NCBI GenBank assembly: GCA_003162635.1
Contig: PMNE01000019.1
Span: 7,624-46,240 of the forward strand
Direction: 5' to 3'
Source of the DNA: Ignavibacteriota bacterium
GTDB lineage: Bacteria; Bacteroidota; Ignavibacteria; UBA10030; UBA6906
DNA length: 38,617 bases
The position numbers and the translations under genes are program-made. The notes below the pieces were generated by a model. That model did no database searches and was not told where the DNA came from. It was given only the letters and a program-made list of their open reading frames with translations. Shown here piece by piece: positions 20,313-27,015 of the stretch (position 1 is its first letter; each line of letters opens with the position of its first letter).

Positions 20313-21137
20313 TTACGCTCCCTTGGGAGAATACAGAACGGCTGCCTTCTCCGCCGAGGTGACGATTCCCCTGATAAGTGCCGAGCTGAACCCATGGTGC
20401 TCCATCTGGTTGAGTCCGGAGATCGTGCAGCCCTGCGGTGTCGTCACCTTGTCCACTTCGCTTTCGGGATGGCTCCCCGCTTCCGCGAGGAGCGTTGCAG
20501 CGCCTCTGGCCGTCTGTGCCGCCATCAGGAGGGCGTCTTCCGCATGAAAACCGATCTCGATCCCCCCCTGGGACGCGGCGCGGATCGCCCGGAGGAAGAA
20601 CGCAATCCCGCACGCACACAGCGCCGTTGCAGGGATCATGTGCGCCTCGTCGATCACCAGCGTCCGTCCGAGCGAATCGAAGAGACGGCACACTTCCTGC
20701 ACGCGCTCGGCCGGAGCATCTCCGCCCGCAATGCACGTCATGCTTTCTCTGATCGCGATGGCCGTATTGGGCATGACGCGAATGATCGGAACCTCGCTTT
20801 CCACTCCACTGCGTATGGCGCTGATGGAAGCGCCCGACACGACGGAGACGAGCGTATGCCGCGCCCGATCGACGACTCCTTTGATCTCATGGAGCAGCCC
20901 GTTCAATTGCTGCGGCGTGACGGCAAGAATGATGATATCCGCGCCGGCTGTCGCGGCGGCATTGTCGGTGCCGACGAGGAACCCCGCATCCCGGAATTCC
21001 TCCAGCGCGGTGAGGGAGCGGCGCGTGAGCGATATCTCCGCAGGCGCGAACAAGCGAGCCCCGACAAGACCGCGGGCAATGGCGGAACCGATGTTCCCGG
21101 TCCCCAGGATGGCAAGGCGACGGCGAGAGGTGCTCAT
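20313..21137 (-). CDS. proC: Pyrroline-5-carboxylate reductase
   Basis: 274 residues, standard length. It reduces pyrroline-5-carboxylate to proline with NAD(P)H, the last step of proline synthesis. The Rossmann motif LGTGNIGSAIARGL is at the N-terminus, followed by ADIIILAVTPQQLNGLL and VVSGASISAIRSGV. The C-terminal all-helical dimer domain has the family signature with SGLNQMEHHGFSSALIRGIV. The start at 21137 gives the Rossmann fold its normal spacing from the N-terminus. It begins 4 bases after the thrC stop, so it is part of the thr transcript. Linking proline to threonine synthesis under one attenuator is unusual. Confidence 0.95.
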   Translation of the reverse strand: MSTSRRRLAILGTGNIGSAIARGLVGARLFAPAEISLTRRSLTALEEFRDAGFLVGTDNAAATAGADIIILAVTPQQLNGLLHEIKGVVDRARHTLVSVVSGASISAIRSGVESEVPIIRVMPNTAIAIRESMTCIAGGDAPAERVQEVCRLFDSLGRTLVIDEAHMIPATALCACGIAFFLRAIRAASQGGIEIGFHAEDALLMAAQTARGAATLLAEAGSHPESEVDKVTTPQGCTISGLNQMEHHGFSSALIRGIVTSAEKAAVLYSPKGA

Positions 21138-21141
21138 AGCG

Positions 21142-22428
21142 TCACGTGTGATGAATGAGGAATGATTTGAAATCGTCGAATTGTGATGAAATCCGCACCG
21201 ATTGCTTCTGGCGTTCCAGACAGGCCTGCAGGCGAGGCGGAATGGTGATCCCCGCCGCCATCCCGTCGTCGTACACCTCGGCAAACTTCGCCGGATGCGC
21301 CGTTGCGATGACGATCCCCTGCCCCCGCATCCCCTGTTCGTGCTTCCAGGCCCGGTAGGCAATGGCACCGTGCGGGTCAAGGACATACCCGAGTTTCCGA
21401 TACACGGCACGAATCGTTTCGCGCGTCTGGCCATCGGTGCAGGAGAACCCCCCGATCTCCGCCGCCATCTTCTCGCGGCTCCGGCCGTAGATCGCCATCA
21501 AACGTGCGAAGTTACTCGGGTTGCCGACGTCCATCGCATTCGCGATCGTCTGCACCGACGGGCGCGGACGGAACGACCCATGACGCAGGTATTCGGGGAG
21601 TACGTCGTTCACGTTGCACGCCGCGATGAACTTTCGAACGGGGAGTCCCATCGCGTGAGCGAGCACCCCTGCGGTGAGATTTCCCAGGTTGCCGCTGGGA
21701 ACCGAGAAGACCGGAGAGACGCCGACCTGCAATCCTGCGTGAAAATAGTAGAACATCTGCGGCATGAGCCGGGCGATGTTGATCGAGTTCGCCGAAGACA
21801 GCCGGCGATGTTTCTTCACCTCCCCATCGGTCAAGGCCTGCTTCACGAGCCGCTGGCAATCATCAAACGTCCCCTGCACTTCAAGCGCAGTGACATTCCC
21901 GCCGATGGTCGTCATCTGCTGCTCCTGGATCTTGCTCACCTTCCCCGAGGGATAGAGGAGAACAACACGCACTCCTTTCACCCCGTAAAACCCCTGCGCA
22001 ACGGCGCTCCCCGTGTCGCCGGAAGTGGCAACAAGCACATCAACCTCCCGATCGTCCCCCCGGTGGAAATAGGCCACCGTCCTGGCCATAAATCGCGCGC
22101 CGACGTCTTTGAAGGCAAGAGTCGGGCCATGGAACAACTCCAGCACGGATGTGTCTTCCTCGAGCCGCCGCAGCGGAATCGGGAAGGTCATGGATTCCTC
22201 GACGATCCGCCGAAGCGGCGCAGGCGAGATCTCATCGCCGAGAAACCTCCGGCTCACGGCAAATGCCGTCTCCTGCAAAGACATCCCTTTCCACCCAGCG
22301 AGTTCCCCGGGCGTGAACGGCGTGAGGGACACGGGGACATAGAGTCCGCCGTCTTCGGCAATGCCGCGATCGACAGCCTCGCGGAACGTCGCTCTGTTGC
22401 GGGGATCGTTGGTACTGCAGAGAATCAT
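21142..22428 (-). CDS. thrC: Threonine synthase
   Basis: 428 residues. This PLP enzyme converts O-phosphohomoserine to threonine. The N-terminal STNDPRNRATFREAVDRGIAEDGGLYVP is the ThrC signature; the PLP lysine is Lys107 in HGPTLAFKDVGARF. VLVATSGDTGSAVAQGF and SVPSGNLGNLTAGVLAHAMG bind cofactor phosphate. The length and N-terminus fit the Bacteroidota/E. coli-like short class rather than the plant class. It starts 6 bases after the thrB stop and is followed at once by proC. Ribosome-binding site weak, consistent with coupling. Confidence 0.97.
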   Translation of the reverse strand: MILCSTNDPRNRATFREAVDRGIAEDGGLYVPVSLTPFTPGELAGWKGMSLQETAFAVSRRFLGDEISPAPLRRIVEESMTFPIPLRRLEEDTSVLELFHGPTLAFKDVGARFMARTVAYFHRGDDREVDVLVATSGDTGSAVAQGFYGVKGVRVVLLYPSGKVSKIQEQQMTTIGGNVTALEVQGTFDDCQRLVKQALTDGEVKKHRRLSSANSINIARLMPQMFYYFHAGLQVGVSPVFSVPSGNLGNLTAGVLAHAMGLPVRKFIAACNVNDVLPEYLRHGSFRPRPSVQTIANAMDVGNPSNFARLMAIYGRSREKMAAEIGGFSCTDGQTRETIRAVYRKLGYVLDPHGAIAYRAWKHEQGMRGQGIVIATAHPAKFAEVYDDGMAAGITIPPRLQACLERQKQSVRISSQFDDFKSFLIHHT

Positions 22429-22434
22429 GACAGG

Positions 22435-23367
22435 TCACTCCACGATGTGTGCGCCTCGATGTGCCACGCAGGAAACGTACACGGTCCGTTCCATGTGCAA
22501 ATCGTCCAACACTCTTCCCTGAAGACATCCGACTCTCTCCGCAATCTCACGCGATGCCGAAAGGGCAAAGAGGGCCGGACCGGATCCCGAAATGCTGCAC
22601 CCGAGCGCTCCGGCTTCGAGCGCCGCCGCTTTCAGGCGATGAAATCCCGGGATCAGCGGAGCGCGTACCGGTTCCGCAATAACATCGTGGAGCGAGCGGC
22701 CGATCAGGGCGAAATCGTCCGTCAGGAGGCCGGCGATAAGCCCGGCAGCGTTCCCGGTTTGGGTGATGACATCCCGGAGAGGCACAGATGCAGGCAGAAT
22801 CTTACGCGCCTCTATCGTCTTGATTTCGATGAGGGGGGACGCGATCGTGCACCAGAGTCCCATCGGAATCCGCACAGGGATGATGTCGATGGGATCATAA
22901 CCCCGCACGAGGACGAACCCTCCCCACAAGCAGGGGGCAAGGTTGTCTACATGGATCGCGCCGCTGGCGATTCGTTCCCCTTCAATCGCATACTTCAGGA
23001 TCTCCTGCGGGGTCAGATCCGCCTGCAACAGTTCATTGCAAGCGACCGCGGCAGCCACGGCGCTGGCAGCGCTCGATCCGATGCCGCTCCCGACGGGGAG
23101 CCCCTTGTCGATCTCGATCTCCACCCCATGCCCGCTGCCATGGTCCTTCAACATCGCGATGACAGGCGCCCCGGCGGTATTGAGAGCCGGGTCCATGGGA
23201 AGCGGCGATCCGGCCGAATGCACCGCAGCAATCCTGACGCCGGGTGTGCCGGAAAACCGAACGGTCACCCGATCTCCCGGACTCTCCAGGGCAAACCCCA
23301 TGATATCGAACCCGCTGGCGACGTTTGAAACGGATGCGGGCGCAAAAGCGGTGGCAGATGTCTTCAT
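22435..23367 (-). CDS. thrB: Homoserine kinase
   Basis: 310 residues, GHMP-kinase family. It phosphorylates homoserine with ATP, supplying the substrate of ThrC. The N-terminal APASVSNVASGFDIMGFAL and the ATP-binding GHMP loop PVGSGIGSSAASAVAAA are diagnostic. ISGSGPALFALS near the C-terminus is the third GHMP motif. The ATG at 23367 begins one base after the thrA stop; this start is preferred to an upstream in-frame ATG inside thrA. Translational coupling with thrA is expected. Confidence 0.97.
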   Translation of the reverse strand: MKTSATAFAPASVSNVASGFDIMGFALESPGDRVTVRFSGTPGVRIAAVHSAGSPLPMDPALNTAGAPVIAMLKDHGSGHGVEIEIDKGLPVGSGIGSSAASAVAAAVACNELLQADLTPQEILKYAIEGERIASGAIHVDNLAPCLWGGFVLVRGYDPIDIIPVRIPMGLWCTIASPLIEIKTIEARKILPASVPLRDVITQTGNAAGLIAGLLTDDFALIGRSLHDVIAEPVRAPLIPGFHRLKAAALEAGALGCSISGSGPALFALSASREIAERVGCLQGRVLDDLHMERTVYVSCVAHRGAHIVE

Positions 23368-23368
23368 G

Positions 23369-25837
23369 TCAATCCTGGTAGTGGGAAATCCTGATGATAT
23401 CGGCAAATACCCCCGTCGCCGTCACCTCCGCCCCTGCGCCGGGCCCTTTGATGACAACAGGATGTTCGCGGCAATTCACCGTCGTCAGAGCGACAATGAT
23501 ATCGCTTCCGGTCAGCGCGGCCGCCGGATGGTCGGCGGGAACCCGCCGGAGTCCCACCTCCGCCTTTCCCTCGACAAAAGATGCAAGGTAACGGAGCACC
23601 TTCCCTTCGGAAGCCGCTGCATCCCTTTCCCGTGCGAACGCCGCGTCGAGCGACACGATCTTCCGCATGAATTCTTCCACCGATCGGAGTTGCTGCATCC
23701 GGCGGGGGATGAGAGGCGTCACCCGGATATCGCGAAAATCGAGTTGATGCCCCGCTTCGCGGGCCAGGATGAGGAGTTTCCGCCCCACATCCATACCGTT
23801 CAGATCGTCGCGGGGATCCGGCTCCGTGTATCCCCTCTTCCGCGCCTCTGCAAGGACATCGCTGAACTGCCGATCCCCCGTGAACGCATTAAACAAATAG
23901 CTGAGCGTCCCTGAGAGTATCCCTTCGATCTTCAATATCCTGTCGCCTCCGGCGACGAGGTCGTTGATCGTATTGATGATGGGAAGCCCGGCGCCGACAT
24001 TGGTTTCGTACAGGAACCGGACGTTGTGCCGTTGCGATACCTTTCGCAATTCCGCGTACCGCTTGTACGCGGCCGAGTTGGCCTTCTTGTTGGGCGTGAC
24101 GATGGAGATGCTGGACGACAGGATCTCGGCGTACCGTCCCGCGATATCCTCGTTCGCCGTGCAATCCACGAAGACACTGTTGGAGAGGTTCAGTTCCTTC
24201 ATCCGCCGGAGGAAGAGATCGGGATTCATCGGAATGCCGCGGGTCATCAGCCGCTCCCGCCATTGGGCCCCTGCGTCATCCTCATCGAGGAAGAGCATAC
24301 GCCGGCTGTTGGCGATCGCCTGCACCTTGACATCCAGATTCTGCAGCCGTCGGAGCACATCGCGCTGCCTGACAATCTGGTCCAGGAGTGTCCCGCCGAT
24401 CAACCCCGTCCCGATAACATACACATGGAGCGATTTCGTATCGGAGAGGAAGAACGCATCATGGAGTGCATTGAGCGCCTTTGATTCGTCCGCCTTGGGA
24501 ACGACGGTGGAGATATTCAATTCGGAGGACCCTTGCGCAATCGCGACGATGTTGATGCCGTTGCGGCCGAGAGCGCGGAAGAGCCGGCCGGCGATGCCGG
24601 TGGTCCGCCGCATGTTCTCACCGACGACGGCCACGATGGAAAGACCGTGTTCAATGAGAACGGGTTCGACCTGCTTGTCGCGAATCTCATGCTTCATTTC
24701 CTCTTCGATCAGACGCTTCGCCACCTGTGCGCTTGCCGGCTGGACCGCGAGGCAGACCGAATATTCCGAAGATGCCTGGGTGACGAGAAGGACGTTAATA
24801 TTCCCCGCCGCCAACGCCCCAAAGATGCGCCGCCCGATTCCCGCGAGTCCGGTCATGCCGCTCCCCTGGACACGGAGGAGGGAAATTTCATCCACCGATG
24901 ATATCCCCTTCGCGGGAAACTTTCCCGCGACATCGCGTTTCCCGATGAGAGTCCCGGGAAAGGCCGGGTTGAACGTGTTTTTGATCCGTATCGGAATCCC
25001 CTTTTCCAGCGCCGGTTGCATCGTGGGAGGATGGATCACTTTCGCTCCGAAGTGCGACATTTCCATCGCTTCTTCGTAGGTCATGCACCCGATGGAAAAC
25101 GCCTTTCTGACCTTTCGCGGGTCGGCCGTCATCACCCCATCTACATCAGTCCAAATTTCGATCTCCGAGGCATGGAGGGCGGCTCCAAACACGGAGGCGG
25201 TCAGATCGGATCCGCCGCGTCCCAACGTCACGGTGTCGTTGTCCGTGGTCGAACCGATAAACCCGCACGCCATCTGGAGCCCCGCATGCTTCTTGAAATG
25301 TGCCCGCAGCAGCTTGTTCGTCAGTTCATGCTTCACTTTCGCAGCGCCGAATGTCTCGTCTGCCTTGATAAGAAGCCGGCTGTCGATGAACTCGCACCGC
25401 ATCCCCTTCGCCTTGACCGCTTCGGCGATGATGAACGTCGAAAGGAGTTCCCCAAAACTCATGATGTAATCAAGGGTTCTCGGCGTCAGCTCGCGCGTAT
25501 AATAGACGCCGTGCAGAACGTCTGTCAGGTCGGCCAGGCGGTTCTGTACCGACTTGGCGGCCTTCGTACGGCGCGAGACAGGAACAAGTGCGGCCAGGAC
25601 ATTCCGGTGTCTCTTCGCCAACGATGCCAGCGCTACCGCGTACCGCCTGTCACCCCCCGCCGCCTGCCTGCTCGTCCGGATGAGGTGATCGGTCACTCCC
25701 TGAAAAGCTGAGAAGACCACAACCAGGTTCTTGTGGCGCGCGTGGGTGTTTGCAATGATTTTCATGACCAGACGGATCCGGTCGGGAGTGCCGACCGACG
25801 AGCCGCCGAACTTCAGGACTTTGATGGCGACCTCCAT
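23369..25837 (-). CDS. thrA: Bifunctional aspartokinase / homoserine dehydrogenase I
   Basis: 822 residues, the E. coli ThrA/MetL length. The aspartokinase part starts with VLKFGGSSVGTP and includes GRGGSDLTASVFGAAL and SFGELLSTFI. Two ACT-type regulatory segments lie near residues 310-455 (LRVQGSGMTGLAGIGRRIF, VAVVGENMRRTTGIAGRLF). The homoserine dehydrogenase part starts at about 460 (VYVIGTGLIGGTLLDQI), with FVDCTANEDIAGRYAEIL, TPNKKANSAAYKRY, YETNVGAGLPIINTINDLVAGGD and GILSGTLSYLF. It catalyses the first and third steps of the aspartate pathway to threonine and methionine. The ACT domains imply feedback inhibition by threonine. Transcription is controlled by the leader attenuator directly upstream; the terminator U-tract ends at the start codon. 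No internal frameshift. Confidence 0.98.
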   Translation of the reverse strand: MEVAIKVLKFGGSSVGTPDRIRLVMKIIANTHARHKNLVVVFSAFQGVTDHLIRTSRQAAGGDRRYAVALASLAKRHRNVLAALVPVSRRTKAAKSVQNRLADLTDVLHGVYYTRELTPRTLDYIMSFGELLSTFIIAEAVKAKGMRCEFIDSRLLIKADETFGAAKVKHELTNKLLRAHFKKHAGLQMACGFIGSTTDNDTVTLGRGGSDLTASVFGAALHASEIEIWTDVDGVMTADPRKVRKAFSIGCMTYEEAMEMSHFGAKVIHPPTMQPALEKGIPIRIKNTFNPAFPGTLIGKRDVAGKFPAKGISSVDEISLLRVQGSGMTGLAGIGRRIFGALAAGNINVLLVTQASSEYSVCLAVQPASAQVAKRLIEEEMKHEIRDKQVEPVLIEHGLSIVAVVGENMRRTTGIAGRLFRALGRNGINIVAIAQGSSELNISTVVPKADESKALNALHDAFFLSDTKSLHVYVIGTGLIGGTLLDQIVRQRDVLRRLQNLDVKVQAIANSRRMLFLDEDDAGAQWRERLMTRGIPMNPDLFLRRMKELNLSNSVFVDCTANEDIAGRYAEILSSSISIVTPNKKANSAAYKRYAELRKVSQRHNVRFLYETNVGAGLPIINTINDLVAGGDRILKIEGILSGTLSYLFNAFTGDRQFSDVLAEARKRGYTEPDPRDDLNGMDVGRKLLILAREAGHQLDFRDIRVTPLIPRRMQQLRSVEEFMRKIVSLDAAFARERDAAASEGKVLRYLASFVEGKAEVGLRRVPADHPAAALTGSDIIVALTTVNCREHPVVIKGPGAGAEVTATGVFADIIRISHYQD

Positions 25838-25877
25838 AAAATGCGAAAACCGGCTTCAGTTCTTCTGAAGTCGGTTT
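25838..25877 (-). terminator. Attenuator terminator ahead of thrA
   Basis: Minus-strand RNA arms AAACCGACUUCAG (25877-25865) and CUGAAGCCGGUUU (25859-25847) form a 13-position stem with one A-C mismatch and an AAGAA loop. A U-rich tail, UUUCGCAUUUU, runs directly into the thrA ATG. The 5' arm can instead pair with 25910-25899, the antiterminator. Confidence 0.85.
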
Positions 25878-25910
25878 CCCGTGGGACAAAACGTGATCAA
25901 CCAACCTCAG
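25865..25910 (-). promoter_or_regulatory. Antiterminator pairing of the thr leader
   Basis: Segment 2 (25910-25899, CUGAGGUUGGUU) can pair with segment 3 (AACCGACUUCAG, within 25876-25865) at all 12 positions, two of them G-U. This pairing excludes the terminator. Segment 2 includes the leader peptide stop codon, so a ribosome that finishes the leader covers it, whereas one stalled at the Thr codons leaves it free. Confidence 0.82.
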
Positions 25911-25969
25911 CCGTCGCAGGGCGGCATCGTCGGGGTGGTCGTTCCGATATGAAGAAGAGCGTTTTTCAT
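25907..25969 (-). CDS. thrL: Threonine operon leader peptide
   Basis: A 20-codon frame reading MKNALLHIGTTTPTMPPCDG and stopping with TGA. Four of its codons are Thr (10, 11, 12 and 14) and one is Ile (8), the amino acids made by or from this pathway, as in E. coli thrL. It is followed by mutually exclusive antiterminator and terminator structures and then thrA 70 bases after its stop. Stalling at Thr codons for lack of charged tRNA-Thr would favour the antiterminator and transcription of thrABC-proC. The AUG lies only 7 bases after the -10 box, so the mRNA probably starts at or within a base or two of it. No Shine-Dalgarno is possible and translation must be leaderless. Confidence 0.88.
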   Translation of the reverse strand: MKNALLHIGTTTPTMPPCDG

Positions 25970-25976
25970 ACTTTTT

Positions 25977-26005
25977 AGTATAAGGATTCCCCGGGTGTTT
26001 GTCAA
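25977..26005 (-). promoter_or_regulatory. Thr operon promoter, near-consensus sigma70
   Basis: On the minus strand, consensus TTGACA (26005-26000), exactly 17 bases, then TATACT (25982-25977). The predicted +1 is about 25969-25971, at the first base of the leader peptide ATG or one to two before it. Confidence 0.85.
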
Positions 26006-26148: not shown

Positions 26149-27015
26149 TCAAGCGGGACGTTGCAGGGGAAACACCGGGCAACCGAATTCACTTTCCACC
26201 GAACGGCCCGCATTCAAGGACCTGATGAGTTCGTCATGGAGCGCCGGACCGGAGGATGTGAGAAGGCTTCCTCCAAAGACGACATTGTGCCTCTCCCCTT
26301 CCAGGGTTGTCACAACGCCCCCCGCTTCTTCAACACAGGGGACGATCGCTGCGGAATCCCATGGGCGCATGACGGTATCGATGGCTGCGCTGGCATCCCC
26401 GCGGCAGACCACGGCATGCTGCACACAATCACCATAGAACTTGAACTTCTGCGCGGCCCGCACAATGCCTCCTAAACGATATCCCCCCTTTGCACCTTCC
26501 ATCTCGGATCGCTGGATCCCTGAGGCAAGCACCGTCGCGTGTCGAAGCGATGCGCAAGGCATAACCCGCAAGCGGACCGGCGACGAGGAGCCGGTGATGG
26601 ACCAGCAACCGTGTCCTTTTGCGGCGCAGATGGTTTCCCCAAATCCAGGAAGGTGAATGACCCCGAGTACGGGTTCGCCGTCCTCCAAAAGGGCGACAAG
26701 GTTTCCGAATAAAGGAGTCCCCATCGCATACCAGGCCGTCCCATCGATCGGATCAAGAACCCACAACAACCCGCTGTCGGCCGCCTCTGCTTCCCCGAAT
26801 TCCTCCCCGAGGATGCCATGGGAAGGATAACGGCGCGCGATCATCGTCCGCATCAACGACTCTGCCTCCCTATCGGCGTCGGTCACCTCGCTCCCGTCGT
26901 CTTTCCTGGCCACCCGCACTCCATTCTGTTGCTGAAGAACGAGCCGTCCCGCCGATGTCGCGACACAGAGTGCGAAGTCGAGATACTCCTTCAGCGCCGT
27001 CTTCGTCAGCATCAA
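26149..27015 (-). CDS. Inositol-monophosphatase-family phosphatase (histidinol-phosphatase HisN-like)
   Basis: 288 residues. Metal-binding motifs of the family are present: GEEFG at 70-74, LDPIDGTAWYAMGTPLFGN (87-105), and the C-terminal PWDSAAIVPCVEEAGG. These Mg-dependent, Li-sensitive enzymes dephosphorylate myo-inositol phosphate, histidinol phosphate or 3'-phosphoadenosine nucleotides. The combination YAMGTPLFGN with RPWDSAAI most resembles the HisN-type histidinol-phosphatases, but I cannot settle the substrate. The ATG overlaps the stop of the upstream TPR gene by 4 bases (27012-27015). No other his genes are seen. Confidence 0.88.
   Translation of the reverse strand: MMLTKTALKEYLDFALCVATSAGRLVLQQQNGVRVARKDDGSEVTDADREAESLMRTMIARRYPSHGILGEEFGEAEAADSGLLWVLDPIDGTAWYAMGTPLFGNLVALLEDGEPVLGVIHLPGFGETICAAKGHGCWSITGSSSPVRLRVMPCASLRHATVLASGIQRSEMEGAKGGYRLGGIVRAAQKFKFYGDCVQHAVVCRGDASAAIDTVMRPWDSAAIVPCVEEAGGVVTTLEGERHNVVFGGSLLTSSGPALHDELIRSLNAGRSVESEFGCPVFPLQRPA

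Follow-up and report, generated by a model that had tools for sequence, protein, structure and literature searches.

The region upstream of thrA in the window (the whole stretch of 38,617 nucleotides that was analysed) very probably holds a ribosome-mediated transcription attenuator that governs thrABC, together with a proC-like gene, by sensing charged threonyl-tRNA. Direct support comes from the leader frame, the promoter match and the two competing stems, from how they are conserved and co-vary, and from the folds that are predicted. The attenuator recurs in at least 22 species related to the window organism.

Architecture of the thrA leader region

We located the leader, the competing stems and the operon behind them on the minus strand (Table 1). 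The gene order behind the attenuator is thrA-thrB-thrC-proC, and the operon makes threonine. The proC-like frame is open from 21434, with homology starting at about residue 104, and is likely the last gene of the operon. An inositol-monophosphatase-family gene in the same direction (26149-27015, minus strand, below the HisN cut-off) ends about 140 bases upstream of the attenuator promoter.

Table 1. Coordinates of the attenuator elements and of the genes behind them in the window
Feature	Coordinates	Strand	Basis
Promoter TTGACA-17-TATACT (-35 box at 26005-26000, -10 box at 25982-25977, 17-nt spacer)	25977..26005	minus	sequence reading and promoter match
Leader ORF, MKNALLHIGTTTPTMPPCDG followed by stop	25907..25969	minus	ORF reading; 20 codons
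Segment 2, CTGAGGTTGGTT, antiterminator 5' arm, holds leader stop	25899..25910	minus	sequence and pairing
Segment 3, AACCGACTTCAG, antiterminator 3' arm and terminator 5' arm	25865..25876	minus	sequence and pairing
Terminator hairpin, GGAAACCGACTTCAG-AAGAA-CTGAAGCCGGTTTTC	25845..25879	minus	predicted fold
U-rich tail, UUUUCGCAUUUU, interrupted, overlaps stem in part	25838..25849	minus	sequence reading
thrA, bifunctional aspartate kinase / homoserine dehydrogenase I	23369..25837	minus	NCBIfam NF006959, 1010 bits (cut-off 726)
thrB, homoserine kinase	22435..23406	minus	TIGR00191, 205.7 bits; NF002288, 356.8 bits
thrC, threonine synthase	21142..22428	minus	TIGR00260, 279 bits
proC-like pyrroline-5-carboxylate reductase	20313..21434	minus	TIGR00112, 199 bits against 196.75

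The promoter matches the consensus at 11 of 12 positions, and seven bases separate the end of TATACT from the leader ATG at 25969. Threonine is encoded at leader codons 10, 11, 12 and 14 (25942-25934 and 25930-25928), Ile at codon 8 and Pro at codons 13, 16 and 17, while the UGA stop codon (25909-25907) lies inside segment 2. Segments 2 and 3 pair at 12 of 12 positions, two of them G-U. Segment 3 also pairs with segment 4 (CTGAAGCCGGTT, 25859-25848), in a terminator stem (25879-25865 with 25859-25845) that has a single A.C mismatch and is contained in the minimum free energy fold of the leader. The two helices are nearly balanced (computed energies of -16.0 and -17.5 kcal/mol), since only two substitutions separate segment 2 from segment 4; this balance looks as if it were under selection.

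A sequence-only reading of this DNA had proposed a near-consensus promoter, a 20-codon leader with these Thr and Ile codons, a leader stop inside segment 2 and an antiterminator (25910-25899 with 25876-25865) pairing throughout with two wobbles, and each of these was found exactly there. It had also proposed a competing terminator whose U-rich tail ends at the thrA ATG; the hairpin and its position hold, but the tail is interrupted and weak. In the window a simple terminator scan did not list the hairpin, and folding of the whole leader gives an energy that is unexceptional against shuffles (z -0.92). Fold energy would by itself be too little to support an attenuator; it is the comparison with relatives that does so.

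The thrA ATG at 25837 lies directly behind the terminator tail, without a Shine-Dalgarno sequence in front of it. The ATG of orthologous thrA genes aligns with an ATC at 25825-25823, five bases past a GGAGG (25835-25831). Judging from this alignment, thrA may start at AUC, its start may have moved, or the assembly may contain an error.

Conservation across the order and the class

Members of the order were sought by ThrA (within the family and the order) and by sequence pattern and covariance model (throughout the class, 391 genomes). With the class-wide pattern TGAGGTTGG-N10-40-ACCGACTTC, the segment 2/3 motif was found in 11 of the 391 genomes, ten times before thr genes and once inside a coding gene; the G045 match appears to be part of a coding sequence and was set aside as a chance hit. 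Ten order members carry the element, namely the window genome (G000), G007-G010, G020, G060, G062, G014 and G015. Their scores with the covariance model R1 range from 63.8 to 91.9 bits, and the next match in the 391 genomes reaches 48.3 bits. Several low-scoring R1 matches (L082, L084, L085, L088-L090, L096 and L098) resemble ordinary terminators or coding sequence rather than Thr attenuators and were discarded.

None of the ten members departs from UGAGGUUGG or ACCGACUUC, while divergence is seen in the coding part of the leader and in the spacers. G014 and G015 carry the element ahead of thrB, not thrA, and their leaders, MSTTAHSIQLCSVTPTTTPTTPSGDG and MKQMATFTTFRGTNTTTFPTTTCPTGDT, contain 8 and 12 Thr, respectively. 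The outer terminator stem has undergone two-sided changes from A-U to G-C between genera. The 8-bp core of the antiterminator is invariant within the order, and therefore the order alone gives no covariation. Both G-U pairs of this core are invariant in the ten members as well.

Nine of the ten order members have a TTGAC(A/T)-17-TANNTT-like promoter that ends 6-8 nt 5' of the leader ATG (for G009 the spacing was read directly, since the script had chosen a neighbouring site). With the -10 box this close, transcription is expected to start on or beside the AUG, so that the leader message of these nine members is predicted, from promoter spacing, to be leaderless or nearly so. For the window, the predicted start lies at the leader AUG or within about 2 nt of it. 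G020 and most f24 and f27 members have a wider gap, of 13-32 nt, between the -10 box and the leader ATG. If the leaderless prediction is right, the first codon would be the 5' end of the RNA, and ribosome loading would be coupled directly to promoter escape.

For the wider comparison, 110 aspartokinase upstream regions of the class were collected and read. Thirteen f24 and f27 genomes, reached through weaker model matches, have Thr-rich leaders in the same layout before thrA. The leader, segments 2, 3 and 4 and the U-rich tail are common to 23 members, which belong to four families; a 24th Thr leader, in G179, has another kind of terminator. Paired changes were found at pair 11-48 (U-A to C-G, seven f24 genomes), pair 6-53 (U-A to G-C, G332), pair 16-43 (U-A to C-G, G014 and G015) and pair 5-54 (C-G to A-U, G340), and segment 4 largely tracks the changes of segment 3. 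The f24 antiterminator has a one-base bulge in most members and an adjoining mismatch in several. True partners pair in 156 cells out of 180, and randomly assigned ones in 150 on average (p = 0.003, uncorrected for relatedness).

These alignments of orthologous upstream regions, which had been suggested as a check, retain the Thr run and both competing stems, and across families the antiterminator has changed in a compensatory way. The attenuator had been presented as complete in a non-enterobacterial genome; it is indeed there, but it is not the peculiarity of one genome, being conserved in several families of the class. That an ordinary untranslated region shows this layout by chance, which the unexceptional fold energy of the leader would agree with, is refuted by the comparative data, since the arrangement is kept in 23 genomes of four families and the excess of Thr in the leaders is specific to that amino acid and to the coding strand.

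Nearly all leaders of the terminator type group in a single clade of the ThrA tree (f1, f5, f24 and f27); the position of G007, misplaced probably through extraction in the wrong frame, was disregarded. G084, G151 and G342 have no recognisable leader upstream of thrA, though their ThrA belongs to the same clade. The simplest reading of the tree would be one origin before the split of f1, f5, f24 and f27, followed by losses in these three genomes. Inheritance appears to have been vertical, and the attenuator can be traced across families, including its move from thrA to thrB. The only named ThrA relatives that were found, three Bacteroidales at 38-45% identity, do not have this leader. Judging from them and from large Bacteroidia-like groups in the phylum as sampled, the window would come from a Bacteroidota class other than Bacteroidia, and not from an enterobacterium.

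The amino-acid signal and the predicted switch

We counted residues in the leaders of 24 members. Every leader has at least four Thr, and Thr makes up 156 of the 585 residues after the start (26.7%), in clusters; Pro (9.4%), Gly (8.9%) and Met (7.7%) come next, and Ile (29 residues, 5.0%) stands at background level. A Thr-rich frame, defined as at least four Thr within eight codons of a short ATG frame, occurs upstream of 24 of the 110 aspartokinase genes, compared with none of 110 on the reverse strand and a mean of 0.75 in dinucleotide shuffles; these 24 regions take in some f14 leaders without a terminator. No other amino acid had a Thr-like excess over the reverse-strand and shuffle controls in the 110 upstream regions. 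Given that Thr is enriched and Ile is not, the switch would read threonine rather than threonine plus isoleucine, and Thr alone appears to be the signal; Ile was dropped as a second one. The suggestion that the leader shares a Thr/Ile logic with E. coli ThrL consequently fails for Ile.

A switch that senses several amino acids, with Ile, Pro or Met added to Thr, would account for the Ile and Pro codons of the window leader, and also for Pro being the second commonest residue where proC closes the operon. We regard it as unlikely, because Ile is so much rarer than the clustered Thr and because Thr alone stands out from both controls. The proC-like gene does close an operon whose leaders are rather proline-rich.

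SAM riboswitches occur at thrA paralogs in the order (SAM-II type at L011 1384-1459 and SAM-I at L041 1272-1391, both from Rfam; the region upstream of thrA in L013 has a resemblance to SAM-II only, below the Rfam cut-off). Metabolite sensing is thus possible in principle, and the motif GGUUGG...ACCG is loosely T-box-like; both could be taken to favour a T-box or metabolite riboswitch accompanied by a Thr-rich frame that arose by chance. Such a reading is very improbable, as the window and the scanned terminator-type relatives have no riboswitch or T-box match in Rfam and the Thr-rich leaders persist while the nucleotide sequences diverge. At gathering score, Rfam returned only tRNA in the window, and known riboswitches, T-boxes and Thr_leader were discarded as candidates for the window and the scanned members. 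The thrA genes with these SAM-type elements (L011, L013 and L041) lie in a different ThrA clade from the terminator-type genes, and two aspartokinase-homoserine dehydrogenase lineages appear, from sequence, to be under different controls.

The effect of the ribosome was modelled by masked folding, in which a ribosome placed at Thr 12 or 14 or at the stop codon hides 14 nt downstream of its A site. In the window, a ribosome at the Thr codons gives the antiterminator a mean pair probability of 0.99 as long as segment 4 has not been transcribed. For a ribosome at the stop codon, the terminator forms with a probability of 0.91, and the full leader without a ribosome also gives the terminator (0.87). 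All 23 members yielded the antiterminator before segment 4 when masked at the Thr codons, and all 23 the terminator when masked at the stop. The masked folding of these members and of thrL agrees with the earlier proposal that translation status selects the fold as in E. coli. At equilibrium, most members favour the terminator despite a stalled ribosome, and so does E. coli thrL; therefore, the predicted switch must be kinetic.

From these elements we infer the start site, the stalling, the termination and the threonine response. Transcription would begin on or beside the AUG of the leader, with a ribosome trailing the RNA polymerase through the 20 codons. When threonyl-tRNA is scarce, the ribosome would stall at codons 10-14, and segment 2, left free, would pair with segment 3 while segment 4 is still to be transcribed, so that no terminator would form and thrA would be transcribed. 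When threonyl-tRNA is plentiful, the ribosome would reach the stop codon and cover segment 2, segments 3 and 4 would pair, and transcription would end just before thrA. If the leader is not translated, its upstream part could pair with segment 2, and the terminator would win too. Three of the properties by which an attenuator is recognised are present: the short leader ORF is rich in codons for the product of the operon, the antiterminator and terminator are mutually exclusive and share one segment, and segment 2 is masked at the stop and free at the control codons, according to computed geometry and masked folding.

Another possibility is that the leader stalls ribosomes but acts mainly via translation or Rho, the hairpin being a poor terminator and thrA being set otherwise. 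The interrupted U-tract of the window, the failure of the terminator scan to list its hairpin, and relatives in f14 and f48 that have Thr-rich leaders without a visible terminator hairpin all fit such a mode of action. We find it decidedly improbable, because the hairpin is kept in 23 of 23 members, the U-tract after the stem is canonical (at least 7 U) in f24 and f27, segment 3 is exactly common to both stems, and the GGAGG before thrA lies 3' of the hairpin, outside both stems.

Related leaders and known systems

Two further groups of Thr leaders were found. Nine f14 genomes have Thr-containing leaders whose ends lie 54-71 nt upstream of a gene with a match to the aspartokinase half of ThrA (leaders L158-L166, in G274, G293, G385, G285, G262, G114, G253, G371 and G173). 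They end, for example, in SITTYTFTTTR or VTTYTHTSTTR before the stop. The nine have no evident terminator hairpin and, as far as their sequences tell, are Thr leaders with another output. In f48, of the same phylum, Thr/Ile-rich leaders lie 72-99 nt before thrA (L179, L184, L187, L192 and L195), ending for example in INTIITITITG or TACTRTTTTG, with the stop context ACGGGGT(A/G). No evident intrinsic terminator was seen at these five loci, which are probably another Thr leader type.

A wider reading would be that a threonine attenuator family unlisted in Rfam was inherited with one ThrA clade across families of this Bacteroidota class, that it is leaderless in the window's order, and that neighbouring lineages kept the Thr-rich leader and swapped the terminator for another output. 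We put this forward tentatively, with slightly more doubt than belief. The Thr leaders without a terminator and the thrA paralogs with a SAM riboswitch offer a comparison.

Leader-peptide attenuation is a textbook mechanism. What we describe seems to be that ordinary mechanism in a new lineage, in the form of an RNA family that is unlisted in Rfam and would work like thrL. Leader-peptide attenuation has been suggested for amino-acid operons of Flavobacterium psychrophilum (PMC9723704), which would belong to the same phylum-level group and is similar by description; the main text of that paper mentions neither thrA nor threonine. Outside Proteobacteria, leader-peptide attenuators are described in Actinobacteria and Firmicutes (PMC1262725, PMC2965389). 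They likewise place a run of regulatory codons, usually with a terminator behind it, upstream of genes for biosynthesis or tRNA synthetases, but they concern trp, ilv, leu, cys and his, not thr, and are unrelated RNAs. In mycobacteria, where leaderless transcripts are common, cysteine-rich upstream ORFs have been proposed to be attenuating (PMC4633059); these differ in the amino acid and in the RNA, and the leaderless start is here predicted from spacing only. We found no open paper on a thr attenuator in this group; the closed-access survey of Lopatovskaya et al. 2010 (Mol Biol 44:128; cited in PMC4833913) might include one.

The closest known system is E. coli thrL. The Thr_leader model RF00506 detected thrL itself (122.1 bits, positive control), but neither the window nor any scanned member reached its gathering score. 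The window's leader may have arisen independently of thrL or have diverged deeply from it, as the sequence-only reading had suggested. Because no Rfam model finds the attenuator, Rfam-based annotation of these genomes misses it. Both systems have a Thr-rich leader and a fused thrA downstream; in thrL, too, segment 2 (GGTGCGGGC) abuts the UGA and is a near-copy of segment 4, and the same switching is predicted in the same folding test. The position before thrA is common to RF00506 and the window, whereas two relatives have the element before thrB. The leader and stem sequences differ from those of thrL, the control codons are here Thr only and in thrL Thr plus Ile, and in nine of ten order members the transcript is predicted to begin at or close to the leader AUG. 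The textbook threonine attenuator would thus be no enterobacterial speciality, with the same logic at work far from Proteobacteria.
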